Assembly (NCBI GenBank): GCA_005792285.1
Contig: SXSI01000008.1
Coordinates: 1 to 47,139, forward strand
DNA: 47,139 nt
Origin: Bacteroidota bacterium
GTDB lineage: Bacteria; Bacteroidota; Ignavibacteria; UBA10030; UBA8401
Direction: 5' to 3'
Made by a program: the position numbers and the translations under genes. Below the pieces are notes generated by a model. It had not been told where the DNA came from, did no database searches, and saw only the letters and a program-made list of their open reading frames with translations. The stretch's first letter is position 1, and each line of letters begins with the position of its first letter. Below are positions 3,734 to 44,700 of the stretch, in pieces.

Positions 3734-4505
3734 ATTAGGTTCTCCAGAAAAACCACTAATTATTGCACATCGGGGATTTTCCGAAATTGCCCCAGAAAAT
3801 TCGATGGCTGCATTCGAATCCGCAGCAAATGCAAAAGTTGATATGATCGAATGCGACGTTCGATTGAGCAAAGATAATAAATTCGTAATTCTTCACGATT
3901 CAAAATTAGATAGAACTACTAATGGAAAAGGTAATCTTCGAACAAAAACATTAAATGAAATTAAAACTTTAAATAATGGTGAATGGTTTTCAAATAAATT
4001 CAGAAATGAAAAATTAGTTACTTTAGAAAAACTTCTCAAGTGGCTACCAAAATCAATAATTTTAAATATAGAATTGAAGCCGGATGTTTTGAGTAGCTCC
4101 GAGGAATCAGCTGAAATTAAACTTGTTGAACTTTTAAATAAATTTGAAATGTCTGAAAGATGTATTGTAACTTCCTTTAATCATAAAAAAATAAAAACTA
4201 TAAAAGAATTAAATTCTAAATTGACAACTGGAATAATTTTTAATCCAATAAAAAATTTTAGGAATTCTCCATCACAACTTTGCAATCGATTTAATGCAGA
4301 TATTTTTATTTGCAACAAACACCAATTACAAAGTGAAGTTGTTGAAGATGCTCACAAAAATAAATATTTAATTTATGTTTACGGTGTTAAATCTGAACGA
4401 GACGTTAATCATGCTTGGCAATTTAAAGTTGACGGAATTATTGCCAATGATCCTCTTTTTGTTAAACAGGCACTTCAGAAAATTAATATACTTTCTTCAA
4501 TTTAA
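3720..4505 (+). CDS. Glycerophosphodiester phosphodiesterase family protein
   Basis: 261 residues, GDPD (GlpQ/UgpQ) fold. It is expected to hydrolyse glycerophosphodiesters to glycerol 3-phosphate and an alcohol. The motifs are HRG at 17-19, PENS, IECDVRLSKD and VILHDSKLDRTTNG, together giving the metal ligands and the catalytic His pair; IELKP and the C-terminal DGIIANDP also fit. No signal peptide is seen, so a cytoplasmic UgpQ-like enzyme is more likely than periplasmic GlpQ. The start is the ATG at 3720, one codon after an in-frame TTG; it overlaps the end of adk by 14 bases. It ends head-on against the cupin gene with a 1-base gap. Confidence 0.9.
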   Translation: MKINKLGSPEKPLIIAHRGFSEIAPENSMAAFESAANAKVDMIECDVRLSKDNKFVILHDSKLDRTTNGKGNLRTKTLNEIKTLNNGEWFSNKFRNEKLVTLEKLLKWLPKSIILNIELKPDVLSSSEESAEIKLVELLNKFEMSERCIVTSFNHKKIKTIKELNSKLTTGIIFNPIKNFRNSPSQLCNRFNADIFICNKHQLQSEVVEDAHKNKYLIYVYGVKSERDVNHAWQFKVDGIIANDPLFVKQALQKINILSSI

Positions 4506-4506
4506 T

Positions 4507-4866
4507 TTATTCGCGATGTGCGGATTCCAAACTAAACGCAGGAATACAAACACACCAATATTCAGCACTTTCATTAAATGGATTTGAGCTTTGCACTCTT
4601 ACACCTTTATTTAATTTAAGCGTTTCCCCTTTTTGTAAAATTAATTCTTCATCATCAACAATAATTTTTATTTTTCCATTTATCATTATTATAATTTCTT
4701 CAAATTCAGGATTTTGAAATGGCTCACTCCAATTTGGAGGTGCATTCATATGTGCAAGACTGTAATTTTTCTCTCCACTAGATGCGAGTCCAAAATGTTC
4801 TTCAATTAATTTTCCATCATTTGTTGGAACAATGAATGGTGAAAATTGTTTAAAATAATTTTTCAT
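4507..4866 (-). CDS. Small cupin-domain protein
   Basis: 119 residues forming a single cupin barrel: the segment FEEIIIMINGKIKIIVDDEE is followed by an LQKGETLKLNKGV turn. The usual cupin metal ligands are not all evident: the first motif lacks the H-x-H pair, so metal binding is doubtful. Function is unknown; relatives are annotated only as cupin domain proteins. The ATG at 4864-4866 lies one base after the fatty acid kinase stop. An alternative in-frame ATG at 4888-4890 would add eight residues and overlap that gene by 23 bases. Neither start has a clear ribosome binding site, and both imply coupling to the upstream kinase. Confidence 0.75.
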   Translation of the reverse strand: MKNYFKQFSPFIVPTNDGKLIEEHFGLASSGEKNYSLAHMNAPPNWSEPFQNPEFEEIIIMINGKIKIIVDDEELILQKGETLKLNKGVRVQSSNPFNESAEYWCVCIPAFSLESAHRE

Positions 4867-4867
4867 A

Positions 4868-6661
4868 TTAGGAATTCTGTAAGTCGTCATTTAAGGATTG
4901 AATAGCAACAGCAATTGCATTTGGTCCAGAGTGAGCACCTAACGCTGGACTGATAGTTGTAAAAATAACATTTTCTCTTCCAGCTATTTCAACAAATATT
5001 TTTTCTAACTCTCTGGCGTTCTCCTCAGCTTTTGCGTGAGCAATCCCAACTCGAAATGGAGTTTTAGGAAGTTTTTTTATAATAAATTTTTTGAATTTTT
5101 TAAATTTATTTTGTTTGCCAAAAGTAAATCCGTCGGCCTTAACCCCATTTTCCGTAAAAGTTAAAATTGGATTCAAATGTAGAAAATCTGCAAGTCTCTT
5201 TTTTGAAGCAGGTAATCTTCCACCACGAACTACAAATTCTAACGAATCAAGTGAAATATAAACTCTGCAATTTAAAATGGATTGTTTGGCAATTTTTAAA
5301 ACTTCTTCAATAGTTTTCTTTTTTCTGATTGTTTCTGAAATTCGCATTGCAATCAATCCCATACCAACGCTTCCATTGAACGCTTCAATCACATTTATTG
5401 GAAAATCTGTAATTCCTTTTGCTGCAGAAACTGCTGACTGATAAGTGCCACTTAATTTACTTGGCAAGTGAAGTGAAATAGCACTTTTATAATGTCCGGA
5501 AAGAAATTGATATTGTCTTCTGAAATCTCCCGGTGTTGGTTGCGATGTTGTCGGATGAATTGGATTTATTTTTAGTTCATTCCAAAATTCATCTATTGTA
5601 ATTGTAACTTTATCAACGTAAAATTTGTCACCAAAATTAAGCCGAACGGGGACCATATGAATATTATATTCATTTAGTATTTCCTCAGGTAAATCACATC
5701 CGGAATCTATTACGAGAGCAATATCGTCGTGGTCTTTGTGAATGTCGGATTGCTGTTTAAGCATGTCGTCTGCTTTTTCATTCGAAATAATTCCATATCG
5801 TTCACAAATTGCAAAAACATTTTTCGGACTATTTGTATGAATATGTAGTTTAATTTTATTTTTTGTTCCACCAAGAATTAAACTATTCCCAAGTTGTGCG
5901 AGTTCCTCTTTTAATTTAACTCGATCAATTTCTATTCCATTTATTAAACATTCAGTACAAAACTGAAATTCTTCCACAACTTCTGGCATGTTGGTAAATT
6001 TATCTTCACTAAAAACATTAACTTGAAAATGTTCAGGGATTTGTCCAGAATCGATGTACTGTTGAATTCCATTCAGCATTTCAACAAATCCTTGTGCGCC
6101 AGCATCAACAACTCCGGCTTTTTTAAGAACCGCAAGTTGATTTGTAGTTTCCTTTAAAGATATTTTTGCTCTTTCCAAAGATTGTTGAAATAAAATTGTA
6201 AAATTATCAAACCGTTTACTTAATCTATTTAATTCATCAACCCAATCTGTAATTGTAGTTAATATTGTTCCCTCTTTTGGTTGAAGTAGTGCATCGTATG
6301 CATAAAGTTTTCCTTTTGCAGCAGCTTTTGCAAAATCTTGAGTCGTAACTCTGCTTATATCATTCAAGCCATCTGCGATGCCAACAAAAAATTGTGCGAG
6401 AATTGCTCCAGAATTTCCACGAGCTCCATCGAGCGCGCTTTCTGCAACAAGCTGGCTCATTTCATTTATTCCGGTATGAATTTGTTTTGAAATTCCCTCT
6501 TGAATTCCTAAAAGTGTAAATGCCATATTTGTTCCGGTGTCGCCATCGGGAACAGGAAATACATTTATTTTATTTAAATAATCTTTATTGGCAATAACTT
6601 GACGAAGTCCCGCAATTAATCCATTTTTGTATCTTATACCATCTAAATAAAGTATTGCCAT
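4868..6661 (-). CDS. Fused DAK2-DegV protein, FakA-FakB-like fatty acid kinase
   Basis: 597 residues. Residues 1-200 are a DhaL/DAK2 ATP-binding domain (VPDGDTGTN at 38-45, ALDGARGNSGA at 76-86). Residues 230-280 match the FakA middle domain, with CTE at 235 and HIHT at 273, positions that in staphylococcal FakA form a zinc site. Residues 313-595 are a complete DegV/FakB lipid-binding domain: DSGCDLP, TTSQPTPGDF, LPSKLSGTYQSA, VRGGRLP, NPIL and the C-terminal GAHSGPNA. In Firmicutes FakA and FakB are separate proteins: FakB presents a fatty acid and FakA makes acyl-phosphate for phospholipid synthesis. Here both halves are on one chain, so the protein may phosphorylate its own bound fatty acid. 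Substrate use is inferred. The cupin gene follows directly. Confidence 0.85.
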   Translation of the reverse strand: MAILYLDGIRYKNGLIAGLRQVIANKDYLNKINVFPVPDGDTGTNMAFTLLGIQEGISKQIHTGINEMSQLVAESALDGARGNSGAILAQFFVGIADGLNDISRVTTQDFAKAAAKGKLYAYDALLQPKEGTILTTITDWVDELNRLSKRFDNFTILFQQSLERAKISLKETTNQLAVLKKAGVVDAGAQGFVEMLNGIQQYIDSGQIPEHFQVNVFSEDKFTNMPEVVEEFQFCTECLINGIEIDRVKLKEELAQLGNSLILGGTKNKIKLHIHTNSPKNVFAICERYGIISNEKADDMLKQQSDIHKDHDDIALVIDSGCDLPEEILNEYNIHMVPVRLNFGDKFYVDKVTITIDEFWNELKINPIHPTTSQPTPGDFRRQYQFLSGHYKSAISLHLPSKLSGTYQSAVSAAKGITDFPINVIEAFNGSVGMGLIAMRISETIRKKKTIEEVLKIAKQSILNCRVYISLDSLEFVVRGGRLPASKKRLADFLHLNPILTFTENGVKADGFTFGKQNKFKKFKKFIIKKLPKTPFRVGIAHAKAEENARELEKIFVEIAGRENVIFTTISPALGAHSGPNAIAVAIQSLNDDLQNS

Positions 6662-23296: not shown

Positions 23297-26242
23297 TTAA
23301 TATGGATTTATAAGTGATAGTCTAAAATATTCTTCATCCTTGCTTGGTTCATGTCGCGGATGAGCTCGTCCATAAGCAAAATTAAATAATGCAAAATCGC
23401 CAAATTTTAGAGCGAACTTCATTTCATAACCAGTTGTAATAATTATTTTTGGTTTTATTTCACTTTTAGAATACCAAGCATTTCCAAAATCATTCACTGA
23501 TGAAATACTTAATGAACCGATTGTAATTCCAAAAATATTTAACGGAAGTTTTTCAGCAATTGGGAACCGTATTTCAATTGAACCAAAAATTAATCTATCT
23601 CCCAATCTAATATTATCCCAACCTCGCAGTGAATGGTTTTCATCATATTGAATTAAAGAAGAAATATCTTCTGTTTGCCATGGATAATAACTTGCTGGGT
23701 CATTTGTAATTCCAATATAATCTTGCGAAGGTGCTTTGCCACTTAATATTTCACTTTTTACTCTTCCATAAAAAATTAATCGTTTCGAAATTGGATAATT
23801 TAAATAAGCGTCCGATGTTATTTTTGTATAATTAAAATTTCCAAATAGTTTTGAATTTGCATTTTCAAATTGAACTTTTAATCCTTTTCCTTGCGTTGGG
23901 AACCAATCAACATTTGTAAAAGGTCGTTTGTCAAGCCATCTGTATTTTAATAATAAAATTCCCTCTTCAGCATTTTCCGGAATTGGTAATATTTTATTTT
24001 CTAATTTATTTCTGTAAACCGGTTTATTATTTTCAATCTTGTCATACATACTTTCAACACTTCGTTTTTGGAATTTAATTCCAAAACTAAATGTATGATC
24101 AGAATTCATTGCATCCCCAAAATTACTTGGAATCGATCCTGAAATTTTTAGAAGATCAACATTTTCATTTAGTCCACTCAAACTTTGATCGTAATTTCTA
24201 TATTTGGAAGTTGAATTTTTCCCAACTTCAACCGAAAGTAAGGGCCAATACATTGCGTTTATATAAGACAATAAAATTTGTTGTTCTCTTTCTACACCAT
24301 TTGTCAATTGTCCGGTAACTCCAATTATATTTCTCATCATTGGATCGGATAATAAAAATGCACCAGTTGCACCGCTACTTGACGAAAAAATAATTGGAAT
24401 TACAATCCATGAATAAAGTTTCAAATTATTGATTAACGAATATTTTTCTATTTGCGTGTTGGATTGTCGTGCGAAATTTTTCGGTAGTTTTATCTGTGAT
24501 CCCGCAGTTTTCCAATCCCAATAAAATGGGTTCATTGATAAATCTGTAAGTTTTGCAATTCTATTTGGATCGACTAAAACTAATTTTGCAGAATCTTTCT
24601 CCGGAAGTATAATTGAAATAAGTAGTGTAGAATTTGGAGCTTGTTGAACCGCGCTGATTCCATCTCCAACATCAGTAATTTGTTTTAGCGAATCATTTTC
24701 CAAATTAATTGTGTGAAGATTTAGTGTTCCTCCTTTGTGAGAAGTAAAAGTAATTGACTTATTATCACTGCTCCAAATCGGTCTTGATTCTGCTTCCGGA
24801 TTTCTTGTAATGATATTTATTTTTGAAGTTTCAAAATTATAAAGAGCAATGTTTACATTTCCATCCTCTTGAGATAATGCAAATGCAATTTGTTTTCCAT
24901 CTGAAGAAATCGAAGGAGTAATAATTTCTGTTTCGGCTTTAAAGTCAGTTAATTTTCTTTTTGTTTTCTTTTTAAGATCATATAAAAACAAATTTGCTAC
25001 ACTATTATTGTGTGATACAAAAATTATTTCCTCTTTATTTGGAACAAAAACTGGATAAGTTGCACGAACTGTAGATGTAATCCAATTTGATTCTGAAATT
25101 TTTGTATCATAAATTTTGATATCGTAAGTCATCGACTGATTTTCATCGTAATGGTATTTTGAATATGCGAGGTACTGATTATTTCTTGACCAATCCATCG
25201 AAGGATGGAATTCTCCATTATCAATTTCTTTAAATAAATATTTTGGAGCTTGCTTAACTGAATCTTTTGATTTGTTAGAAAATATTTTTTGGAAAAAAGA
25301 TTTTTCCTGCGTTGTTTCTTGTTCAGCTATAATTAAAGATTTATCCATTTGCCAATCATCCATTTCCCCTATAATTGCAATGTGGATACTGTCTTCTGCT
25401 AATCGGAAAGCAAAACTTTTTTTCAAAGGAAGTGAAATAATTTTTCCAACATCCTCATATCTTTCTTTTTGAGCGCGATATCCAAAAAAAGAAGTACTCA
25501 TATCTCTTCGCCACTCCTCGTTAAATTGTTCAACTGAAATTCCTGTTTTTAATTTGAAAGCATCGTCAAAAAAGAAAACCCCTACACTATTTCTATTGTG
25601 AACAATTGAATAAATAACTGAATCTCCGAAGCGATGAGACATATATAATAATTTCGAAAATCCATCATCATGCGGATCCATTTTATCTGATTCATTTCGA
25701 AGAAAACTATATTTGTGTTTAATGTCCGATCTATATGGCCGCCATCGTTCTGTAAAATATTCAGCTGATCCTTCAATAAACCAACTTGGTGTTCCCGATA
25801 AAAGAATTCCAAATGGTTCAGGTAGCCAACTTTTTATCGAATTCAGAAGAACAACATGTTGAAGTTCGTGCGATACAACTTGTGTTAACCATTTTTCATC
25901 TTCCAACCAAAGCGCAGCATCATTTTGATCAACCCAAATAACTACATTGTTATTCCAGTTTGCAAAACCATTCATGATTTCATCTTCAGCAGTGAATGTA
26001 ATATCTATCGTCCCAATTTTTTCTAATTTTACTTGCTTCAACAAAGATGGTAGAATCGCTTCTGAAATATCAATTCCCTTTTTTGCAATTTCTTCTATTT
26101 CAGTATGATAATGAATTCTGAAATTTTTTGATGTGATTGTTTTCCAATTTAATTCCGGATGAGTTCGATTGCTGAAAAACCAAGTTCCTTGAGAGCTCGA
26201 AATTAGTGGAAGAAAAAATATTAACAGAATTAATTTTTTCAT
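23297..26242 (-). CDS. Gluzincin protease - PD40 propeller - Omp85-like barrel fusion
   Basis: 981 residues with a signal peptide (MKKLILLIFFLPLISSSQG). Residues 30-260 are a peptidase-MA-like domain with HELQH (H125, E126, H129) and a third ligand in WFIEGSAEYF (E157). Residues 300-600 contain PD40 repeats (SSDGKQIAFALSQEDGN, SSDNKSITFTSHKGGT). The last 370 residues are beta-rich and end like an Omp85/BamA barrel (LRGWDNIRLGDRLIFGSIEIRFPI, then NDFGNAW and RLSLINPY). It is probably an outer-membrane protein whose protease and propeller parts face the periplasm. It starts 2 bases after the serine hydrolase-VanX gene, with GAGGA inside that gene's end as its ribosome binding site. Substrate unknown. 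Confidence 0.85.
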   Translation of the reverse strand: MKKLILLIFFLPLISSSQGTWFFSNRTHPELNWKTITSKNFRIHYHTEIEEIAKKGIDISEAILPSLLKQVKLEKIGTIDITFTAEDEIMNGFANWNNNVVIWVDQNDAALWLEDEKWLTQVVSHELQHVVLLNSIKSWLPEPFGILLSGTPSWFIEGSAEYFTERWRPYRSDIKHKYSFLRNESDKMDPHDDGFSKLLYMSHRFGDSVIYSIVHNRNSVGVFFFDDAFKLKTGISVEQFNEEWRRDMSTSFFGYRAQKERYEDVGKIISLPLKKSFAFRLAEDSIHIAIIGEMDDWQMDKSLIIAEQETTQEKSFFQKIFSNKSKDSVKQAPKYLFKEIDNGEFHPSMDWSRNNQYLAYSKYHYDENQSMTYDIKIYDTKISESNWITSTVRATYPVFVPNKEEIIFVSHNNSVANLFLYDLKKKTKRKLTDFKAETEIITPSISSDGKQIAFALSQEDGNVNIALYNFETSKINIITRNPEAESRPIWSSDNKSITFTSHKGGTLNLHTINLENDSLKQITDVGDGISAVQQAPNSTLLISIILPEKDSAKLVLVDPNRIAKLTDLSMNPFYWDWKTAGSQIKLPKNFARQSNTQIEKYSLINNLKLYSWIVIPIIFSSSSGATGAFLLSDPMMRNIIGVTGQLTNGVEREQQILLSYINAMYWPLLSVEVGKNSTSKYRNYDQSLSGLNENVDLLKISGSIPSNFGDAMNSDHTFSFGIKFQKRSVESMYDKIENNKPVYRNKLENKILPIPENAEEGILLLKYRWLDKRPFTNVDWFPTQGKGLKVQFENANSKLFGNFNYTKITSDAYLNYPISKRLIFYGRVKSEILSGKAPSQDYIGITNDPASYYPWQTEDISSLIQYDENHSLRGWDNIRLGDRLIFGSIEIRFPIAEKLPLNIFGITIGSLSISSVNDFGNAWYSKSEIKPKIIITTGYEMKFALKFGDFALFNFAYGRAHPRHEPSKDEEYFRLSLINPY

Positions 26243-26244
26243 AA

Positions 26245-28548
26245 CTAATTTAATTCCTCAAAAGTTTTATTATAAATTGGATAATTTTGCCATCCCTGAT
26301 AATCAAAATGCCACCATTCCCATTCGTAAACATTAAAGCCAACTTGTTCAATAGTTGTGCGTAATAATTCTCTGTGCCAACGCTGCAATGTAGTTCCTCC
26401 GGGATAATCTGGAAAAGCGCGCGGACCAAATTCATCATAACCACTAACCATGTCAACTGGTTTTTTTGTTTCCAAATCATATAAAGTAATATCAACTGCG
26501 CAACCACGATTATGCCGCGAACCTTTCGCAGGTTCAGCTACAAATATTCTTTGTTCAACGGGAGTTGCATCCCAAAACATTTTTGTAACATACCAAGGTC
26601 TGTATGCATCATGAATTAATAATCCATATCCATATTTTTTTAAAATATTTTGCGCACGAACTAAAGCATTCGCCGCATCCGATTGCAAAAACGCTTTACT
26701 GGATTTGTAAAATGGAGTTCCCATAAAATTATTTGTTGAAGCATATCGAATATCATACTGAATTGATTTATCAAGTGAACGCATTTCAACAAGTTTTGAA
26801 TCACTCATTTTATTTGTTTCAATTGGTGGAGTTGATTCAATTGCTTTTTTATACAAATTATTATAAGAATCTAAAGGTACAACTTTAAAAGTTGAGCCAT
26901 CTTCTCCATCAATTTTTCTTCTTTCAAATTTAATTCCTGCAGCAGTTGCAGAAATTGCTTTTCCATTTTTGTCTCGTTCAAAAATTATTTTTTCTCCGTG
27001 ATACATATTATAATTTGGGAAAGCATAAACATCTTTTGAAATTTCTGTAAGAGGATCAAATTCTGTCCATTCAATTAGAGCTGTAAGTTTTCCATGCATT
27101 TCTAAAATATAAAGTGGAATATGATCGAATCCGTATTCACCAATCAATCCTTCCCAGTGAGTTGGAATTTTTGAAGGTTTATTATTTTTAACTCGTTTTA
27201 TAATATCACCTCCAAAAATAATTGAATTCCAACTTTTGTCAGTTGGATAAAATTTTGCTCCGAAAGTTTGTTTGTCATCAAACATTAATGTGTCAGAATT
27301 ATATGCAAGTGAACGAACTTCTGCTCTTAAATTTGGTGATTGTAGAATTATTTTATCCCCTCTTTTTAAGAATTCAATTTTGCCAATACTGCTTTCGTAC
27401 AATCCTGTTAATTTTTTAATTTGAAGCTGGGTAAGTGGAAAAGTTTTTAATGGTCTCGGAAATTCTCTTTTTTCTTTTTCAGCCAAAACTAATCTTAGTG
27501 CATAGTTTGCAATTCTATCTGTTGTTGAGTTAACAACATCCATTGAAGCCGCAACTATTACACCAATTTTTTTTTCAGGCAAATAAGAAAATGAAGTAGC
27601 AAAACCAAAAACTGCACCTCCATGACCAACTTTTTTATGCCCGTCTAACTGATCTACAGAAAACCCAATTCCGAATCCAGATTTATTTTTTGAATATTGA
27701 ACCGTGTACATTTCTTTTAATGTTGATGGGGAAAGTATTTTTTCATTTCCCGACATTCCATTTGAAGCCAACATTTTTATAAATTTTGCAGCTTCGTTTA
27801 CTGAACAATATAAATTTCCCGCTGCTTCAATTCCTAAACGAAAATTTGGCGCAATTGATTCTCTTCCATCATAACTCCACATTATTGCATCAGCGAGATT
27901 ATCTTTCACAGTTGGAGTAACTCGAAAAGAAGAATTTTTCATTCCAAGTTTATCTAAAAGTTTTTCTGAAATATAATCGTGAAATGGTTGGTTTTTTATT
28001 TTTTCAATTACAAAACCTGCAGTGTTAATTGCCGCGTTGGAATATTTAATTTTTGTTTCCGGTTCATAAACAATTGTTGAATTGTAAATACTCTCAACAG
28101 ATTGTTTTATTGATGGTTCGGTTGCATCAAAATAACTTCCAACTGGAGATTCTCTAACTAATCCCGATCGATGTGTCATTATATGTCGTAAAGTAATTTG
28201 CTTCCCAAATGGATTTTTAGGATTGAATTCCGGTAAATAAGTTGAAACTGGAAGATCAATATCGATTTCTTTTTTTTCTACAAGCTGCATAATCGCAATG
28301 TCAGTAAAAAGTTTCGAAACTGAACCGACACGATAAACTGTATTAGCTGATGCAGATTTTGTTTTTTTTGAATCTTCAAATCCAAAACCATTTGCATAAA
28401 TTGTTTTATCAGAATCGATTATAGCGATTGATATTGCCGGAATTTTTTTATCATTCAATTCATACTTAATATATTCTTCAAGCAATTTAATGAATTGTTG
28501 AGAAAAAGCTGAGTTAATAAACAAAAGATATAATAGTATAGTTCTCAT
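26245..28548 (-). CDS. Serine hydrolase (class C beta-lactamase fold) fused to VanX-type dipeptidase
   Basis: 767 residues, signal peptide (MRTILLYLLFINSAFSQ). Residues 20-360 are a penicillin-binding-protein/class C beta-lactamase-like serine hydrolase with S76-V-S-K79, Y169-S-N171 and KVGHGGAVFG. A linker region of beta character (about 370-580) follows. Residues 588-765 are an M15 D-Ala-D-Ala dipeptidase: SIQYDIRYASTNNFMG, AYRPW, SRHNRGCAVD (zinc ligands H679 and D686) and EWWHFD (general base E744, H747). It should act on cell-wall peptides in the periplasm, trimming or hydrolysing D-Ala-D-Ala. Both halves keep complete motifs. Vancomycin resistance is not implied, since no vanS/R/H/A-like genes are nearby. 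Confidence 0.9.
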   Translation of the reverse strand: MRTILLYLLFINSAFSQQFIKLLEEYIKYELNDKKIPAISIAIIDSDKTIYANGFGFEDSKKTKSASANTVYRVGSVSKLFTDIAIMQLVEKKEIDIDLPVSTYLPEFNPKNPFGKQITLRHIMTHRSGLVRESPVGSYFDATEPSIKQSVESIYNSTIVYEPETKIKYSNAAINTAGFVIEKIKNQPFHDYISEKLLDKLGMKNSSFRVTPTVKDNLADAIMWSYDGRESIAPNFRLGIEAAGNLYCSVNEAAKFIKMLASNGMSGNEKILSPSTLKEMYTVQYSKNKSGFGIGFSVDQLDGHKKVGHGGAVFGFATSFSYLPEKKIGVIVAASMDVVNSTTDRIANYALRLVLAEKEKREFPRPLKTFPLTQLQIKKLTGLYESSIGKIEFLKRGDKIILQSPNLRAEVRSLAYNSDTLMFDDKQTFGAKFYPTDKSWNSIIFGGDIIKRVKNNKPSKIPTHWEGLIGEYGFDHIPLYILEMHGKLTALIEWTEFDPLTEISKDVYAFPNYNMYHGEKIIFERDKNGKAISATAAGIKFERRKIDGEDGSTFKVVPLDSYNNLYKKAIESTPPIETNKMSDSKLVEMRSLDKSIQYDIRYASTNNFMGTPFYKSSKAFLQSDAANALVRAQNILKKYGYGLLIHDAYRPWYVTKMFWDATPVEQRIFVAEPAKGSRHNRGCAVDITLYDLETKKPVDMVSGYDEFGPRAFPDYPGGTTLQRWHRELLRTTIEQVGFNVYEWEWWHFDYQGWQNYPIYNKTFEELN

Positions 28549-33206: not shown

Positions 33207-34151
33207 ATGAAAAAATTATTATTTCCACTCTTTTACACATCATTTATAATTCTTACCGTATTAACTTTTCAATCTTGTGCTGGGTCCGGTGAAACTACTC
33301 TAGTACAACCGATAACTGATGCTACAACTCAAGACACAACTACAACAACTGATGATGCACCATTGGATCTTTCTAGTTCTGAAAATGTAACAGAAGAAGG
33401 AGTTGATACAGTTTATACAGAAATTCCGGAACCTGAACAAGCAATAGTTGTTGTTGCTCCATCAGATACACTTATTGAACTTACTCCTGAAAGTCCAACA
33501 GAGGTATATGATTTTAATAATGATGCAATGCTCAGAGAAAATGAAGCGTTAAGAGAAGAAAATGAATTACTAAAAGGTCGTGTTTCAAATCTCGAAAAAG
33601 ATATTTCTATTTTGGAATCAAGTACATCGATATTAAATAAAGAGCCAATTAAAAGACAACAACAATCGGCAACAGAAGTAAATAATGAATCAACTGCGGA
33701 CATACTCGCAATAACAACCGAAAGTGAAAATAAAAATTATCCTACAGCAGCAATTTCAAAATCACCAGTCATGGCTGGAAAGTCTTCACCAGAAGAAATT
33801 TCGGCATATAAAAGTTCATTGGAAATTCTTAAACAAGGAAATTATGCTGCAGCAACTGATCAACTACAAAGTCTATTAAGTGGTGGATTAAAAGCAGATC
33901 TCGCAGATAATGTTTATTACTGGTTAGGTGAATCTTCTTTCGGACAAAAAAAATATGATGAAGCTCTTTCGAATTTTAAACAAGTTTCAAACTACAAAAT
34001 TTCTGAAAAGAAAGATGATGCTCAATATATGGTTGCGCGTTGTTACGAACGCTTAGGAAAATCACAACAAGCTGTAACAGAATACAAAAAATTGATTGAA
34101 AGTTATCCGACTAGTGAATTTGTAAAACGAGCGCAAGCGCGATTACGATAA
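33207..34151 (+). CDS. CpoB/YbgF-like TPR lipoprotein
   Basis: 314 residues. The signal peptide has a lipobox ending QSC (C24), so it is a lipoprotein. A Thr/Ser/acidic stretch follows (to about 100), then a coiled coil (AMLRENEALREENELLKGRVSNLEKDI is broken here for length), a disordered linker and C-terminal TPR repeats (about 195-314: SLEILKQGNYAAATDQLQ, YYWLGESSFGQKKYDEALSNF, ARCYERLGKSQQAVTEYKKL). This layout matches YbgF/CpoB, which links Tol machinery to cell-wall synthesis. The tol-like operon lies only 3.3 kb away, on the other strand. Its last 9 bases overlap the end of fbp. Confidence 0.8.
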   Translation: MKKLLFPLFYTSFIILTVLTFQSCAGSGETTLVQPITDATTQDTTTTTDDAPLDLSSSENVTEEGVDTVYTEIPEPEQAIVVVAPSDTLIELTPESPTEVYDFNNDAMLRENEALREENELLKGRVSNLEKDISILESSTSILNKEPIKRQQQSATEVNNESTADILAITTESENKNYPTAAISKSPVMAGKSSPEEISAYKSSLEILKQGNYAAATDQLQSLLSGGLKADLADNVYYWLGESSFGQKKYDEALSNFKQVSNYKISEKKDDAQYMVARCYERLGKSQQAVTEYKKLIESYPTSEFVKRAQARLR

Positions 34152-37159: not shown

Positions 37160-37447
37160 ATGATACCTCTCATAATATTTTATCTTCATATAGTTGCTGC
37201 ATTATATATTTTGACTTATCAATATCAGAAGGAAAATATTGCTTCTGGCTTTGTTTCATTATCATTCTTTCTCCTAATTTTTTCAGTTGGATGGAGTATT
37301 TGCACATATATTTCAACTTTAATTATTGAACCCGAAGGATTTGGATTTTTTTTAGATAGGAATACTATTTCGTTAATTTTACTTTCAGTAAGTGAAGTAA
37401 CTTTTTATTTTGTTTTTTTCAGAGAAACTACTTCACAACAAAATTAA
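37160..37447 (+). CDS. Small membrane protein of unknown function
   Basis: 95 residues with three probable membrane segments at about 2-19, 29-54 (ASGFVSLSFFLLIFSVGWSIC) and 68-89. No family was recognised. It is transcribed away from ilvE across 131 bases and ends inside the 3' end of the opposing tonB gene (20-base overlap). Small helix-rich proteins of this type are common in the phylum but uncharacterised. Confidence 0.55.
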   Translation: MIPLIIFYLHIVAALYILTYQYQKENIASGFVSLSFFLLIFSVGWSICTYISTLIIEPEGFGFFLDRNTISLILLSVSEVTFYFVFFRETTSQQN

Positions 37448-38207
37448 AAGTAATAATACAAGTTTGATCTTTTTGAGGAAACGAACTTTGAAGTGGTTCA
37501 AATACCCATTGTGCAATCGCGTTTATTGAAACCTGTTCGAGAACAGGATTTTCTTTTTGTAAAGGTTTAGAATCTTTAACAGTTCCATTCGGAGCAACAG
37601 TTACTTTAATTTTAATTTGAGCTTGTTGGCTAACTTTGTCAGGAAATTTTGGTAGCACTTTATTATAAATACTTCTTGTAAAAGTTCCACTCCATTGAAT
37701 ATTGAATCCGACATCTGTTGCACTTTTAGTTGAAATTCCACCTTTGTATGGAGAAGAAACAATATTACTTCCATCTAAATCTTCTCCCGTAATTTCTCCT
37801 TTTATTTTTCCTTTTGTAGTTCCTATTGGATTAGTTAATTCTGACGAAGTTGAGAGATTTTTTTGTTTAGTTACTGTTGGAGAATAATCTTCGGATTCTT
37901 TTTTAGTTGTTGTTGGTGAATTAATTTTTTCTTCATCGCGAACTAAATTACTTCTTTTTGGTAAACTAATAATATTATTTGCTTCAATTTCCTTTTGAGC
38001 AATTCCGGATGCGCCACTTGTTGCGGTACTTAAGGGAATATTTTCATTCAACAATGCTTCGTTAATCGGTCCCCAACTTATTTCAGTAAAATCTGGTGGT
38101 GTTGATTTTACGGAAAATGGTGTAAGAAATGCAAACCAAATCAATAACACGTGTATCACGATTGAAAAAAACCAACCTATTGAAATATATTTTTTTTGTG
38201 AAATCAT
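37428..38207 (-). CDS. TonB-family energy transducer
   Basis: 259 residues. An N-terminal membrane anchor (YISIGWFFSIVIHVLLIWFAFLTPF cut here) precedes a low-complexity Thr/Ser/Lys-rich periplasmic spacer (about 70-165), and a TonB C-terminal domain from about 175: NKVLPKFPDK, QIKIKVTVAPNGTVKDSKPL, SINAIAQWVFEPL. It transmits proton-motive energy from ExbB/ExbD to an outer-membrane partner. It begins at the base right after the exbD stop and is the last gene of the TPR-barrel-SPOR-exbB-exbD-tonB operon. The spacer lacks the Pro-Glu/Pro-Lys repeats of classical TonB. Confidence 0.87.
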   Translation of the reverse strand: MISQKKYISIGWFFSIVIHVLLIWFAFLTPFSVKSTPPDFTEISWGPINEALLNENIPLSTATSGASGIAQKEIEANNIISLPKRSNLVRDEEKINSPTTTKKESEDYSPTVTKQKNLSTSSELTNPIGTTKGKIKGEITGEDLDGSNIVSSPYKGGISTKSATDVGFNIQWSGTFTRSIYNKVLPKFPDKVSQQAQIKIKVTVAPNGTVKDSKPLQKENPVLEQVSINAIAQWVFEPLQSSFPQKDQTCIITFNFVVK

Positions 38208-38624
38208 TTATTGCTCAGATACTACTTCCGGAGGTTCAGTTGCAATCATAAATTTTTTTGCACCAATACCTTTTGCAATATCAATTACTTCTACAGCTTG
38301 TTGCAAACTAACTTCTTTATCAGAATAAATTATTACAACTTGTTGTCTATCTTTATCCAACATTGGAATTAAAAGTTGTGCTAAAGTTTCCTTTGTAACA
38401 GGAACTCTATTCAAAAATAATTCACCGGTTTTTTGGATAACTATTACTGCATGTTGATCTGTTGTTACTTCTCCCTGAATTGCCTCCGGTAATGCAACAT
38501 TAACTCCCGGCAAAGCAACAAATGATGAAGCTAAAAGAAAAAATATCAATAGTTGCATTACAATATCAGATAAAGAGGAATAATTAAATTCCGGGCGAAT
38601 TCTATTTCTTACTTCGAACTTCAT
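38208..38624 (-). CDS. ExbD/TolR-family biopolymer transporter
   Basis: 138 residues. A single membrane segment (SLSDIVMQLLIFFLLASSF) carries the proton-pathway Asp (in SLSD), as in ExbD and TolR. A periplasmic domain follows (NVALPEAI, AVIVIQKTGELFLN, VVIIYSDKEVSLQQAVEVIDIAKGIG broken here). It forms the motor with ExbB/TolQ. It lies 5 bases after exbB and abuts tonB. Whether the system is Tol-like or Exb-like cannot be decided by sequence of this protein alone; the TonB neighbour favours Exb. Confidence 0.92.
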   Translation of the reverse strand: MKFEVRNRIRPEFNYSSLSDIVMQLLIFFLLASSFVALPGVNVALPEAIQGEVTTDQHAVIVIQKTGELFLNRVPVTKETLAQLLIPMLDKDRQQVVIIYSDKEVSLQQAVEVIDIAKGIGAKKFMIATEPPEVVSEQ

Positions 38625-38629
38625 ACTAT

Positions 38630-39316
38630 TTAATTATTTTCTCCGCTTTCAGCGGTATCGTCAAAATAAGTTTTTTGTTCAATAGTGTTTGTTTCAGTTT
38701 TAGTAGAACCACTTAAAACAATTTCAATAAATTCTTCGGTTGTTTTTTCCATTTGAAAAACAATTCTATTTACACGATCGACAAAGTGGTTGTAAAATCC
38801 AAGTGCTGGAATTCCAACAATTAATCCAAATGCAGTTGTTATCATTGCTTCCCAAATTCCGGAAGCCAAATCTGCTGGACTAACATTTCCGCCAAGTTGT
38901 TGAATTGTTTGAAACGCTGCAATCATTCCAGTTACTGTTCCTAAAAATCCAAGCATTGGTCCGATTCCAGAAATATTTGCAAGCACACTTAATCTTTTTT
39001 CAAGAAGAAAAACTTCTTCTTTTCCTGCAATGTGAATTGCTTCCTGAATTGCTGGAAGTCCCATTTTATATTTTGAAATTGCTTTTCCCAAAATCCGTGC
39101 GATTGGTTTTTTTACTGCGATTGTAGCATTTTCCGCTTCTTCAAGATTTCCTCTCATTAATGCAGAACGAATTGAAGAAAGTAAATCGTTTGGATTATAT
39201 TTTGCAAATGAGATTATTAAATATTTTTCAACAATTACCGCAACTGCAATTATTGAACAAAGTAGAATCGGCCACATTACAAGTCCACCTTTGATAAATA
39301 AATCGTATAAGTTCAT
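38630..39316 (-). CDS. MotA/TolQ/ExbB-family proton channel protein
   Basis: 228 residues. Three membrane segments: about 13-36 (LVMWPILLCSIIAVAVIVEK), 103-130 (ISGIGPMLGFLGTVTGMIAA) and 147-172 (IWEAMITTAFGLIVGIPALG). The GxLGTVxGMI and ITTAFGLIVGIPAL motifs are diagnostic of ExbB/TolQ. With the ExbD protein it forms the inner-membrane proton-driven motor. The C-terminus ends in an acidic, Thr-rich tail (about 200-228) that is longer than usual. It is 5 bases upstream of exbD. Confidence 0.93.
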   Translation of the reverse strand: MNLYDLFIKGGLVMWPILLCSIIAVAVIVEKYLIISFAKYNPNDLLSSIRSALMRGNLEEAENATIAVKKPIARILGKAISKYKMGLPAIQEAIHIAGKEEVFLLEKRLSVLANISGIGPMLGFLGTVTGMIAAFQTIQQLGGNVSPADLASGIWEAMITTAFGLIVGIPALGFYNHFVDRVNRIVFQMEKTTEEFIEIVLSGSTKTETNTIEQKTYFDDTAESGENN

Positions 39317-39341
39317 ATTCGTATTATTCCTTTTTTAAAAT

Positions 39342-40001
39342 TTAATTTTCTCTTATGCGGACAACATTATATCCGCTTTCTAAAGTTGGTGCAATTTTTT
39401 CTGCGTAAAGTCGCGCTTCTCTCGATGAATTATATTTTCCAATAAAAACACGATAGCGACCATCTTTACCTTTCACTCTATCTATAAAAGCTGGAATTCC
39501 AGCATTGTTAAAAAGCAAAACTTGTTCTGATGCTTTTATTTGCGTTCCCCAAGAAGAAATTTGGATTGAATAACTTCCAGTTCCCATTGCAACACTTCGA
39601 GCTTTTGATGGAGGTGGTGGTGGAGGTGGCGGAGGTGCTTTTCTAGTTGGTGTATCTGGAGAAGTGGTCCTTCCTTTTTCTGTTATCAATGCAGGTTTTA
39701 AAGTTACACCAGGTTTTACAAGTTCTACTACAGGAGCAGTTGGAACTGCATTTGAATCAGCTACAGCAGTTGTATCTGGAAATTGCATAGCTGGAAATTG
39801 TTTTTTTTCTTCATCAAAAACGCCGAAGAGATATAAAGTCAATCCAATAATTCCCAAACCTAAAACTCCGGCAACACTAATTGCAATTGGAAATGGAAGT
39901 CCAAGAATTTTTTTCTTTCCTGCAATTGGTGGTGCTCCCGGTTTTGCTCCTGGGATTGGTGCTCTTGGTGGTGGTGTTCCTTTTAAATTTAAATTTGGCA
40001 T
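39342..40001 (-). CDS. SPOR-domain membrane protein
   Basis: 219 residues. A Pro/Gly-rich cytoplasmic N-terminus (PPPRAPIPGAKPGAPP) precedes one membrane helix (about 36-58, ISVAGVLGLGIIGLTLYLFG), a periplasmic spacer with a poly-proline run, and a C-terminal SPOR domain from about 145 (GSYSIQISSWGTQIKASE, GIPAFIDRVKGKDGRYRVFIG, YNVVRI). SPOR domains bind denuded glycan strands of peptidoglycan, usually at the division site. A good Shine-Dalgarno site (GGAG) precedes the ATG. It sits between the barrel and exbB genes, which ties the motor to the cell wall. Confidence 0.88.
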   Translation of the reverse strand: MPNLNLKGTPPPRAPIPGAKPGAPPIAGKKKILGLPFPIAISVAGVLGLGIIGLTLYLFGVFDEEKKQFPAMQFPDTTAVADSNAVPTAPVVELVKPGVTLKPALITEKGRTTSPDTPTRKAPPPPPPPPPSKARSVAMGTGSYSIQISSWGTQIKASEQVLLFNNAGIPAFIDRVKGKDGRYRVFIGKYNSSREARLYAEKIAPTLESGYNVVRIREN

Positions 40002-40021
40002 ATTATTCTCCTTTTAGAATC

Positions 40022-41671
40022 TTACCAGCGATATGCTGCTCCAAGTGAAATAAAAATTCCTGGTTCGTTATAACCTTCCCACATTTCATATTTTGAATTT
40101 AGTAAATTTTCCATTCTTAGAACTGCAGTTAAATTATTTAAAATATTATAGTCAATTTTTCCAGATAATTTAAAAATACTTTCCGTCTTTCCATCAGATT
40201 TTTTGAAACCAAATCCTCTCGGAGAAGACAATTGTAAATCAATTGTTGAAGACAAATTTTCAATTATTGGCATTTGATACTTAGCAAGAACTTCCAACAC
40301 AGGAACATACGGAAGGACTTCGAGTGAATCAACTGGAAGATTATATTTCCCTGAAACAATTAAATTATGTTTAAAGTCATTCTGATAAGTTACTGTAGCA
40401 CTTGCAATAATTTCATTTGAATTAAAATATATTGCATCAAACATTTTATTTGTATCGGCTTTGTAAAATGGACGATCTTCTGCAGATCTAAAAGCTATAT
40501 CACTTCGTAATTGTAATTTTTCTGAGAATCTGTATAATCCAGCAACCGATAATTGAATTGGAATCGTCATATGATTTAATGCGGTAAGAGAAGAGACATA
40601 TGGATTTATTTCAAGATAATCTTGAATAGACAATTTTTTTACATCGCGTGAAATTGTAAATGTTAATTGAAGCGGATTTGAGTATTGATAATTAAGTAGA
40701 AAATTTCCACCAAATTGTGATTGAGAATTATTTTGTGTGCCGCGATAAAATATTTCTGTTAATTGTAAAGAGGTATTAATTTCACGATTCCATCGATAAT
40801 CAAAATTTAATCCATTTCGAAAATAATATGACTGATGTCCTTCCCTCATATAAACAGATTGATATTGTGAAAATAATTGGTAAGTAACTGAATTAATTGT
40901 TGTGCTACTTGTTGCCGATAAAGAAAATTTATCTTCCGTGAGATCATTAAAATCACTCATACTTAAAACATTTATCCCGAGTTGTAATTGATAAGAAAGC
41001 GGATTGTTTAACCACGAAGGATTGAATTCCGACTGTAAAATATTTCCGTTGAATGAAAAATTATTTACAGATCTATTTTTACTTGAATCTTTTGAACCGA
41101 ACAAACCATAATTATCAATTCCAATTCCTACTTTAGCTTGTCCGCGGGATTTTACAAGAAAGGATATTGAATTTTCTAAATTTAATAATGAAATATTTCC
41201 GCCAAGTTCGATATTCCCTTTTTGCTTATCTGCATTTGAAACATGACCATTTGTTTGATAAAGCATTCCGTGAAATAAAATTCCGGAGGTTTCATAATTT
41301 TTCCCAAACCAACCTTCAATTGCCGGGGTTGAATAGCTTCCAAAAGAAAGCAAAACTTTTCCACTCATTATTTCTCTTTCACGTTGAAGTTGATGCTGAG
41401 TTTTTTTCTGCTGATCGGTGTTTGGTAATAATGAAATTGGTTTTGTAGTTACTTGATAAATTTTATCTTCATCAGCTAACTGCCGTTCAACTAATTGTGG
41501 TGTAAGATATTCTTCTTTTGTAATTACAAATTCAGGATTATCGATTTTAGGCATTAAAGTATCCTGCGAAGTTGGACCGGTCTCTTTAGTAATTGAAGGA
41601 ACTTCTTTTTCCTGTGCAAAAATATTAGTTACAAAAAATACTACAAAACAAAAAATAATAATGTTTTTCAT
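40022..41671 (-). CDS. Plugless TonB-receptor-like outer-membrane barrel
   Basis: 549 residues. Signal peptide (MKNIIIFCFVVFFVTNIFAQ), then about 100 residues of low-complexity polar sequence instead of a plug domain, then repeated amphipathic strands from about 125 to the end. The C-terminus resembles a TonB-dependent receptor: RMENLLNSKYEMWEGY followed by GIFISLGAAYRW with a terminal aromatic. No TonB box or plug is recognised. It overlaps the TPR gene by one base (TAATG) and is followed by SPOR, exbB, exbD and tonB genes. It is probably a barrel of unknown transport or scaffold role; the plug might be a separate protein. Confidence 0.8.
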   Translation of the reverse strand: MKNIIIFCFVVFFVTNIFAQEKEVPSITKETGPTSQDTLMPKIDNPEFVITKEEYLTPQLVERQLADEDKIYQVTTKPISLLPNTDQQKKTQHQLQREREIMSGKVLLSFGSYSTPAIEGWFGKNYETSGILFHGMLYQTNGHVSNADKQKGNIELGGNISLLNLENSISFLVKSRGQAKVGIGIDNYGLFGSKDSSKNRSVNNFSFNGNILQSEFNPSWLNNPLSYQLQLGINVLSMSDFNDLTEDKFSLSATSSTTINSVTYQLFSQYQSVYMREGHQSYYFRNGLNFDYRWNREINTSLQLTEIFYRGTQNNSQSQFGGNFLLNYQYSNPLQLTFTISRDVKKLSIQDYLEINPYVSSLTALNHMTIPIQLSVAGLYRFSEKLQLRSDIAFRSAEDRPFYKADTNKMFDAIYFNSNEIIASATVTYQNDFKHNLIVSGKYNLPVDSLEVLPYVPVLEVLAKYQMPIIENLSSTIDLQLSSPRGFGFKKSDGKTESIFKLSGKIDYNILNNLTAVLRMENLLNSKYEMWEGYNEPGIFISLGAAYRW

Positions 41672-44600
41672 TATAATTGTTCCAATTCTTTAAGGCGACG
41701 TTTTGCCTCTGTAATTAATCCAAATTCGGTTGTTTGCTTCAGTACAAAATTATATGATTCCTTTGCTTTTATTTTCTGATTTGTTTTTTCGTAACACTCA
41801 CCAAGTTGTAAATAAGATTTTGCAATCCAAATTCCGGAAGCTGGATAAACATATCTCACTCTCATAAATGAAATAATTGCTTCAGTATAATCTGGTGGAT
41901 TTTGTGTTTGATAAATCATACCGATTGAATATTGCGACTCAGCTCCTAATTCATCAGTATGAGAAAGTGCAACAGTTTTAAATAACTCAATTCCTTTATT
42001 AAAATCTTTTCTTTCCGTATAAATTTTTGCTAATTCAACTCTAGATTTATCGCCTGCATTACTTTTTGGATGTTGTGCAATAACCGATGAATATTTATTT
42101 ATTGCATCATCATCTTTTCTTAAAAGTTGAAAAATTATTCCTTGTTGAAATGAAGCTTCCTGTGATTCAAAAGATTTTTGATATTCTCTTTCAATTCGTG
42201 CTAATGTAGTTTGTGCTTCGCTTCTCATTCCTTGTTGAATTTGCGCTAATCCCAATTCAAGAAGTATTCTCGGAGAATATTCATTCGATTTATTTTTTTC
42301 AGAAAGTGGTTTAAGAATATTAATTGCATTCTGCTGTTGATTTATTGTTCTGTATGCTTTTGATAATTTTAATTGTGCATCTATAATTATTTTACTTTTT
42401 GGATAGTCTGTTATTATTTGATTTAAGGTAGTAATAGATTCTGCAACTTTATCATTTGTGAAAAGTAATTCACTCTTCTGTAAAAGTAAATCCGATTTTA
42501 TATTTGATTTTGGGTTGTCAGCAATAAAATTGTCTATTAAAGTAATACTTTGCAATGGCTTCTCTAACAAAACATAGCAATAAACTATTCCACTAAATGC
42601 ATCTAAAATAAATTCTGTTTCAGGAAATTTTGTTATAACAATAGAATATGATTCGATTGCTTTTTCATAATTCCCGGAATTATAATATGCATCGGCTATA
42701 CTATAATATGCTCTCGGTAATAAATCGCTCTTCGAAAATCCTTCTATAAAATTTGAAAATGTTTGAATTGCTTCCGGATATTTTTTCTCTCGGAAATATA
42801 TCCAACCAGTTGTATAAAGTGCATCATCTGCATATTCAGATTGAGCAAACTTGCCCGATAAATCTTTAAATACTTGAATTGCTTTTTGCATATTCCCAAC
42901 TTTATAATACGATTGAGCAAGTTGGTGAATTGCATAATCATTTTCTTTATTTGATGGAAATTTTTTTATTAAGTCAGACAAAGTAGAAACAGCATCAGTA
43001 TATTTTTTAGAATAATAAAACGCATCTGCTAATCGAAGCTGTGCATCATAAACAAGTTCGTGTGTCGGATATTTATTTAATAACGTTTGAAATGTTTGAA
43101 TACTTTGCGCGTAAAGTTTTTGATTATAAAGTGACCATCCCAAACCGTGTAAAGCATCAGGTAATCTTTGATGATTTGGTGATTGTCTAATAAATTCTTT
43201 ATAATTTTTCTCAGCATTCGAGAATTGTTGTAATGCAAAATATGTTTCACTCAACCAAAAAACTGCGTCATGATTTAATGGATATGATTTATACAATACT
43301 ATATAATCTGAAAAAGAATTAATTGCCTCGTTATATTTTTTTGCTTTATAACTACTCCACCCTTTTTGGAAAATAGCTTCGGATTTTAATGTATCATTTG
43401 TGTTTGGTGTAGTTAAAATATTCGAAAATGATTTTTCGGCTTCTTTATAATTTTTCTGTACAAGGTTTATTTCACCAATCATTTTAAAAGTAATTCCACG
43501 AAGAGAACTTGTTTGAAATTTATCAATTAATTTTGAGTACGATTCGAATGATTGTTGATATTTTTTTAAATCAAATAATAATTCTCCGGCATCAAAAAGT
43601 GCGTCATCTGCCAACTCATGTGTTGGGAATTGTGTTGCTACTTTTTGGAAAGTTAAAATTGCATCTTCCTTTTTTTCAATAAGTCGATACGTGTAAGCTA
43701 ATCGATATGTTGCTTCTGTTGCGTATGGAGATTTTTGCTGACTTATTTTGCTGAGCAATTTTATTGCTTCATCATATTCTTTTGTTTGAATAAATGATAG
43801 CGCAAAAGTGTATTGAGATTTATTTATTAATTCATGATCGGGATATTGTTTTTCGAAATTTAATAAATACTTTCTCGCTTCAGGAATTTTTCCAAGTGCA
43901 AGATTCGAAATCCCTTGTAAATACATCATGCTTCCACTTAAAATAGAATTATCAGCTAAATCAATTCCAATTTCTGAAAAGTGTAGCAACACTTCTTCAT
44001 ATCTTTTAAGCGAATACAAAACTTCGCCAATGTGAATTACAACTTTTTGAGTGAGTTCCTTTTTTGATTCATCATTTTTAAAATTTTGTAAATATAATTT
44101 GAAACGTGTTAATGAGTTTTCGAAATTTCCTTGTTTTTCATATAACCAACCGATCGAATAAAATGCATACGGAGATAACGAATGCGTTGTCGAACTATCC
44201 GCACTTATACTGTAAAATAAATGTGCATTTGATAATTGCTGAAGTTGATAAAAACTTTCTCCGCTCCAATATGCAGCTTGTCCAAATAATTTATGAGCTG
44301 GATATTCTTTAGTTAGTCTCGAAAAATATTTTGCAGAATTTTGATATTGATGCAATCCGTAAAATATTTCTCCCATTCTATATAAAGTGTGTGTATGAAT
44401 TTCGTTGTGTTGATATTTTGTATCAATAATTTCAAACCGACGCAGTGCTTGAATTGTATCTGAAGTATTCAAATAAGATTCACCAAGAATAAAAAGTGCA
44501 TCCGTTTGTTTTATCGATGAAGGATATTTTTCGACAAAATATTTTAATTGATCGACTGCCAATTGAAAAAGTTTATCTTGATATAAACCATATCCAAAAG

Positions 44601-44700
44601 CGTAATCTTGTTCTTCTTGAATTGTGTTATCAGCTATTTGTGAATAGCCAAAATTGAAAAGAAGTAGTAAAAGTAATAATTGTTGAGTTATTGTTTTCAA
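41671..44700 (-). CDS. Large exported TPR-repeat protein
   Basis: 1009 residues with a signal peptide (KTITQQLLLLLLLFNFGYSQ). Nearly the whole mature chain is tandem TPR helices of the 34-residue kind, many with YPSS/FPTH-type turns and Y-x-x-A-I-x-x-F motifs (for example KKYPEAIQTFSNFIE and GNYEKAIESYSIVITKFP), about 25 in number by eye. The start is a TTG: the reading frame has no ATG before an in-frame stop upstream, and the TTG opens the signal peptide. It heads the barrel-SPOR-exbB-exbD-tonB operon, and CpoB-like TPR proteins act with Tol/Pal, so a role as periplasmic scaffold for the motor is likely. Confidence 0.85.
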   Translation of the reverse strand: MKTITQQLLLLLLLFNFGYSQIADNTIQEEQDYAFGYGLYQDKLFQLAVDQLKYFVEKYPSSIKQTDALFILGESYLNTSDTIQALRRFEIIDTKYQHNEIHTHTLYRMGEIFYGLHQYQNSAKYFSRLTKEYPAHKLFGQAAYWSGESFYQLQQLSNAHLFYSISADSSTTHSLSPYAFYSIGWLYEKQGNFENSLTRFKLYLQNFKNDESKKELTQKVVIHIGEVLYSLKRYEEVLLHFSEIGIDLADNSILSGSMMYLQGISNLALGKIPEARKYLLNFEKQYPDHELINKSQYTFALSFIQTKEYDEAIKLLSKISQQKSPYATEATYRLAYTYRLIEKKEDAILTFQKVATQFPTHELADDALFDAGELLFDLKKYQQSFESYSKLIDKFQTSSLRGITFKMIGEINLVQKNYKEAEKSFSNILTTPNTNDTLKSEAIFQKGWSSYKAKKYNEAINSFSDYIVLYKSYPLNHDAVFWLSETYFALQQFSNAEKNYKEFIRQSPNHQRLPDALHGLGWSLYNQKLYAQSIQTFQTLLNKYPTHELVYDAQLRLADAFYYSKKYTDAVSTLSDLIKKFPSNKENDYAIHQLAQSYYKVGNMQKAIQVFKDLSGKFAQSEYADDALYTTGWIYFREKKYPEAIQTFSNFIEGFSKSDLLPRAYYSIADAYYNSGNYEKAIESYSIVITKFPETEFILDAFSGIVYCYVLLEKPLQSITLIDNFIADNPKSNIKSDLLLQKSELLFTNDKVAESITTLNQIITDYPKSKIIIDAQLKLSKAYRTINQQQNAINILKPLSEKNKSNEYSPRILLELGLAQIQQGMRSEAQTTLARIEREYQKSFESQEASFQQGIIFQLLRKDDDAINKYSSVIAQHPKSNAGDKSRVELAKIYTERKDFNKGIELFKTVALSHTDELGAESQYSIGMIYQTQNPPDYTEAIISFMRVRYVYPASGIWIAKSYLQLGECYEKTNQKIKAKESYNFVLKQTTEFGLITEAKRRLKELEQL

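Follow-up and report, generated by a model that had tools for sequence, protein, structure and literature searches.

A plugless receptor-type barrel encoded with its own TonB motor: a candidate outer-membrane pulling machine in Bacteroidota

In a plugged TonB-dependent receptor (TBDR), TonB pulls on the plug. In a 2025 survey, tol-pal loci were not found in Bacteroidetes; PorE was put forward as a tether and further systems were expected, and the constriction and holding of the outer membrane in Bacteroidota without Tol-Pal is an open question (PMC12204202). Here we describe an operon in which a receptor-type barrel without a plug is encoded together with ExbB, ExbD, TonB, a SPOR protein and a long tetratricopeptide repeat (TPR) protein. 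It lies in a 47,139-nucleotide stretch of a Bacteroidota bacterium (UBA8401 lineage, assembly GCA_005792285.1, contig SXSI01000008.1, positions 1-47,139), called the window below. We consider it about an even chance (probability roughly 0.5) that the plugless receptor acts as the outer-membrane anchor of a dedicated motor in an anchor-and-pull mechanism. With somewhat less assurance, we tentatively propose an undescribed Bacteroidota/KSB1-type machine in which this plugless TBDR is the motor's mechanical anchor and which replaces Tol-Pal for outer-membrane constriction. The operon is not mentioned in the available text of the survey (PMC12204202), and no description of the TPR-barrel pair or of the system was found in the open-access literature searched.

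Operon layout, conservation and the plugless barrel

The operon spans 37428-44700 on the minus strand. Its six open reading frames (ORFs) and the main elements within them are as follows, in transcription order:

41671-44700, minus strand: TPR protein, 1009 amino acids (aa), TTG start; signal peptide followed by an uninterrupted solenoid of about 26 TPRs
40022-41671, minus strand: barrel, plugless TBDR type, 549 aa
41510-41539, minus strand: TonB-box-like decamer NPEFVITKEE (barrel residues 45-54; family form LPEFVITGxE)
40028-41359, minus strand: 22-stranded barrel domain (barrel residues 105-548)
39342-40001, minus strand: SPOR protein, 219 aa; one transmembrane segment, a proline-rich linker and, in the periplasm, a SPOR domain at about 39390-39581
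38630-39316, minus strand: ExbB/TolQ motor subunit, 228 aa (MotA_ExbB, 5.3e-30)
38208-38624, minus strand: ExbD/TolR motor subunit, 138 aa (ExbD, 2.4e-25); transmembrane aspartate D20 (SLSDIVMQLL)
37428-38207, minus strand: TonB, 259 aa; transmembrane helix, periplasmic linker and TonB_C domain (37437-37640)

In an AlphaFold2 model based on a 42-homologue alignment, the barrel has 22 strands between residues 105 and 548, with a predicted local distance difference test (pLDDT) score mostly above 90, and residues 16-100 are unfolded. The top 50 Foldseek matches of this model in the PDB are all plugged TBDRs (BtuB 1nqe, E 5.7e-18). The sequence profile matches FyuA (best E 3.3e-8), PiuA and CntO, among others, in their C-terminal barrel halves, so that the receptor-like character first read from the C-terminus is confirmed by fold and by sequence profile. 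The window barrel has no Pfam match at E<=1, the plug included, and no NCBIfam match. None of the 42 homologues matched the plug domain PF07715 at E<=0.1, and five of them matched the TBDR barrel family in the same Pfam search. The barrel is derived from a TBDR and has lost its plug. The segment ahead of the barrel had been described as low-complexity sequence in place of a plug; the plug is indeed absent, but the segment, about 83 residues long, is disordered rather than simply of low complexity. One of the protein's two best-conserved blocks lies within it.

The intergenic spacings are, in transcription order, -1 (a TAATG overlap), 20, 25, 5 and 0 bases. Besides the motor-subunit matches listed above, Pfam identifies 15 TPR_6 stretches, SPOR (1.1e-6) and TonB_C (8.9e-6). 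ORF coordinates and Pfam matches bear out the six tightly spaced same-strand genes, the TAATG overlap and the gene order of the initial annotation, and we are highly confident of the architecture and homology of the parts. The arrangement is not due to chance because the complete six-gene order recurs in all 15 same-family loci with enough contig. Loci were picked by barrel or TPR matches, and the figures given here are adjacency rates, not prevalence. At class level all 40 loci have the TPR and barrel genes side by side; SPOR and TonB usually follow downstream, and ExbB and ExbD vary. Among loci with GTDB names (Ignavibacteria, Melioribacteraceae, Kapabacteria, KSB1), the barrel adjoins the TPR gene in 67 of the 72 with room. 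The five exceptions belong to one lineage (Balneola, Aliifodinibius, Gracilimonas), and in all five the barrel is kept elsewhere in the genome; in the one split case whose surroundings were read (L226) it heads SPOR-ExbB-ExbD-TonB. Beyond the class, the pair was found in 16 of 20 loci and in 21 of 30 loci of a second set that purposely took in weak matches. Both points on which the initial annotation had let its proposal stand or fall, a missing plug and genes that occur together, thus came out in its favor. The system is phylum-wide in Bacteroidota and reaches neighboring phyla, well beyond the local scope of that annotation.

Taken at face value, 377 of 396 genomes of the phylum gave a match. 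This count was rejected, as the weak matches (for example in families f16, f31 and f33) are ordinary plugged receptors without a TPR neighbor. Two loci (L238 and L243) carry barrel homologues with no adjacent TPR gene. The window operon is flanked by a carB-type gene upstream and an ilvE-type gene downstream, both ordinary-looking and identified by reading the sequence. Promoter and terminator scans of the locus gave results at chance level only.

Barrel tail, motor genes and the absence of Pal

In most of the class the homologue alignment gives the tail motif LPxxxLPEFVITGxExI. The window genome encodes 16 plugged receptors, and every ten-column segment of the barrel alignment was scored (BLOSUM-averaged) against their TonB boxes. 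Residues 45-54 (NPEFVITKEE) scored 9.46, the next distinct segment scored -1.57, and z was 6.7 over all segments. Judged by this alignment test, the barrel has retained the TonB box that characterizes TBDRs, and we infer that TonB would bind the decamer. Some relatives show a near-perfect TonB box, such as IEEVVVTRDR in locus L083; in other classes, judging by eye, the motif has diverged, for instance to EEVNVVKAY or RTVTVTSAF. A conserved TonB box on a plugless barrel lends weight to the earlier idea that what TonB pulls is not a plug.

The operon encodes a complete Ton motor: ExbB, ExbD and TonB are present, and the sequence retains the transmembrane aspartate D20 of ExbD and the S-x3-H motif of TonB (S15/H19). 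Three MotA_ExbB genes are present in the genome, and two of its proteins exceed the TonB_C cut-off, one in the operon and one in a set on contig C43. That set is an ordinary ExbB-ExbD-ExbD-TonB (L037, 1089-6393), and its TonB shares 22% identity with the operon TonB. The third ExbB is MotA-like and has a MotB/OmpA-like partner. Because the second Ton set can serve the 16 plugged receptors, the operon motor is free for the plugless barrel, to which it is apparently dedicated. The operon TonB scored 22.3 bits against the TolA equivalogue TIGR02794, below the cut-off of 59.45. TolQ-likeness of ExbB was dropped as evidence for a Tol system, since the housekeeping ExbB also scores TolQ over ExbB. 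In L037 the Ton set is followed by a PstS-like protein (by reading) and a TPR protein.

The AlphaFold2 model of the TPR protein (mean pLDDT 91) has 53 helices after the signal peptide, arranged in one solenoid of about 26 repeats; its predicted TM score (pTM) of 0.57 leaves the global curve uncertain. The median length at 158 loci is 1009 aa (interquartile range 998-1025) and hardly changes though identity falls to 21-35%. So constant a length is unusual among repeat proteins. By an estimate based on general TPR geometry, a solenoid of this size could be roughly as long as the periplasm is wide. Elsewhere in the phylum the SPOR slot holds a protein with an HU-CCDC81 or HU domain, a transmembrane segment and SPOR. 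The HU-CCDC81 fusions in other classes suggest a nucleoid-to-peptidoglycan link. HU-CCDC81 domains joined to SPOR or membrane proteins were seen in the post-barrel slot of L252, L255, L258 and L226. In L252 a PorP/SprF-family-like gene (4250-5260, minus strand, by eye) directly follows the HU-type gene.

The Pal_lipo profile found no match in the window genome at E<=1e-3, and none in its sister. The Pal cut-off was passed by none of 100 class genomes and by none of the 36 barrel-positive genomes tested, and the TolB cut-off by none of 41 genomes of relatives, which gave only partial propeller-repeat matches. Family f33, which has only generic receptor matches and no barrel, has Pal over cut-off in 8 of 8 genomes tested, and the f33 loci that were read carry the canonical tolB-pal-pal-cpoB. 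This complementarity of Pal and barrel is suggestive. A strict mutual exclusion of the two was upheld only in part. OmpA-type domains are common elsewhere in the class, where PorE-like proteins may coexist with the system. The tandem pal genes within the f33 cluster were observed in loci L296 and L294, with which the further f33 locus L291 is listed.

Three window genes may be mentioned here. A CpoB/YbgF-like coiled-coil and TPR lipoprotein with a lipobox-like LTFQSCAG (33207-34151, plus strand) is encoded in this genome, which has neither Pal nor an over-cut-off TolB. At 23297-26242 (minus strand), PD40 propeller repeats are fused to an Omp85-type barrel; this is the genome's best match to the TolB profile (1.8e-25, below cut-off), and it is similar to the 'OMP-TolB-like' proteins that the survey suggests as ancestors of TolB (PMC12204202). 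The adjoining gene (26245-28548, minus strand) encodes a 767-aa fusion of a beta-lactamase-type domain and a D-Ala-D-Ala dipeptidase (Peptidase_M15).

In the mechanism that we propose, ExbB-ExbD would use the proton-motive force to drive the dedicated TonB, whose C-terminal domain would take hold of the TonB box in the barrel's disordered N-terminal tail. The box would be joined by a flexible linker directly to the barrel wall, with no gate to unfold. With the plug lost and the box linked to the wall, a pull would load the outer membrane. The barrel would thus be the outer-membrane anchor, the role of Pal in Tol-Pal. The SPOR protein would place the unit on denuded (septal) peptidoglycan, and the TPR solenoid of constant length would bridge or scaffold the parts in the manner of CpoB in Tol-Pal. 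The likely function would be constriction and stabilization of the outer membrane during division in a lineage without Tol-Pal. The Tol-Pal-like role raised in the initial annotation is consistent with the Pal distribution and is put forward here as a proposal.

Several observations weigh against this anchor-and-pull mechanism. With a strict position-specific scoring matrix applied to single sequences, the median p was 0.09, and the window decamer (p 0.53) was not significant. The tail could be a ligand of the TPR groove instead. KSB1 loci have no SPOR match, and in several lineages outside the class (L230, L236, L252, L253) the motor genes lie apart from the TPR-barrel pair. The barrel-lacking families f9, f16, f46 and f50 are also without Pal over cut-off, and division is therefore possible in the absence of both. 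The evidence for exclusion between Pal and barrel comes mainly from one family and possibly reflects one evolutionary event.

The outer face of the barrel and other explanations

The extracellular loops of the barrel are 3, 8, 9, 4, 4, 6, 22, 5, 12, 16 and 18 residues long, the assignment of strands to sides presuming TBDR topology. They are the most conserved structural class, with an information content of 1.72 bits compared to 1.41 for strands and 1.00 for periplasmic turns. The last loop is the most conserved (NLLNSKYEMWEGYNEPGI, W531, Y534). Short conserved loops are the opposite of what a ligand receptor would show, and they probably close the pore. These features bear on the possibility of a TonB-energized conduit, in which the plugless pore would pass a large substrate (a protein, lipoprotein or polysaccharide), the TPR protein would hand it over and TonB would pull the cargo or gate the barrel. 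The barrel does have transporter ancestry, and TPR solenoids commonly bind cargo peptides. In Myxococcus, secretion of the protein PopC requires a TonB-dependent transporter (TBDT) and its Ton system (PMC6434023), and the TonB homologue FusB has been studied in ferredoxin import (PMC13253070). However, a plug-less variant of the transporter Oar failed to support secretion in Myxococcus (PMC6434023), the outer loops are short and conserved rather than diversified, and the post-barrel slot is taken by SPOR or HU-SPOR, a peptidoglycan or division element. Nor did a cargo-like gene stand out as recurrent in the clusters, although no systematic search for one was made. We regard a conduit as unlikely.

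Less likely still is a stationary scaffold from outer membrane through peptidoglycan to inner membrane, in which the barrel tail binds the TPR solenoid and ExbB-ExbD-TonB mainly serve other receptors. TPR superhelices bind extended peptides, the conserved tail residues extend beyond the box, and the TPR-barrel pair is the invariant core while the motor varies in position. On the other hand, no other stretch comes near the tail motif in its fit to the genome's own TonB boxes, and the window family always has a dedicated TonB in the operon, despite the second Ton set of the window genome. A surface machine for motility or adhesion, comparable to the Myxococcus Glt/Agl complex, would use the same classes of parts (an ExbB/D-like motor, TonB-like and TPR proteins, outer-membrane barrels), and the C-terminus of the operon TonB weakly matches AgmX/PglI (NF033768, E 0.0025). 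That match reaches 17.9 bits, far under the family cut-off of 40, the system is phylum-wide, and minimal outer loops disfavor an adhesin platform; we consider such a machine very improbable. A degenerate TBDR operon heading to loss, which a barrel without a plug might bring to mind, can be dismissed, as homologues are intact single ORFs of the same design across many families and loci.

Comparison with known systems

The operon is a candidate for the outer-membrane pulling machine thought to be missing in these bacteria. How the outer membrane is constricted without Tol-Pal becomes a directly testable question with a phylum-wide operon that combines a motor, a TPR scaffold, a peptidoglycan binder and an outer-membrane anchor. 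If the anchor-and-pull mechanism is true, components of Ton systems can exert force on the outer membrane itself, and this would be, to our knowledge, the first TBDR to drop its gate yet keep the handle.

With TBDRs such as BtuB, FyuA, OprC and FoxA, the barrel shares the 22 strands, the homology in fold and C-terminal sequence, and an N-terminal TonB-box-like motif. It is related to them yet has no plug, its extracellular loops are short and conserved, and it has a TPR neighbor almost everywhere, to which the window family adds its own SPOR and motor genes. An ordinary ExbB-ExbD-TonB system shares the three motor proteins and their key residues with the operon, but the operon motor is apparently dedicated to one plugless barrel and linked to the TPR and SPOR proteins. 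Oar-Ton(Oar)-PopC of Myxococcus xanthus resembles the operon in the non-import use of a TBDT with a Ton system, but Oar has a plug and the plug matters (PMC6434023). PorE, a CpoB-TolB-CP-Pal fusion, has likewise been put forward, as a tether between outer membrane and peptidoglycan, for the gap that the lack of Tol-Pal leaves in this phylum (PMC12204202). PorE is an OmpA-domain lipoprotein with no barrel or motor, while the window genome has no Pal-profile match and Pfam identified no OmpA domain, the mark of a PorE-type tether, in the six operon proteins.

The likeness to Tol-Pal (TolQ-TolR-TolA-TolB-Pal-CpoB) extends to a motor pair driven by the proton-motive force, a transmembrane force transducer, a periplasmic TPR protein, a peptidoglycan-binding element and an outer-membrane anchor. 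The operon differs in having neither TolB nor Pal, in a TPR protein of about 26 repeats as opposed to the few in CpoB, in peptidoglycan contact via SPOR and in a transducer with a TonB_C domain; its anchor is an integral barrel and not an OmpA-type lipoprotein. Without Pal, TolB and TolA it is not a member of the Tol-Pal family, but by analogy of its parts it would work like Tol-Pal.

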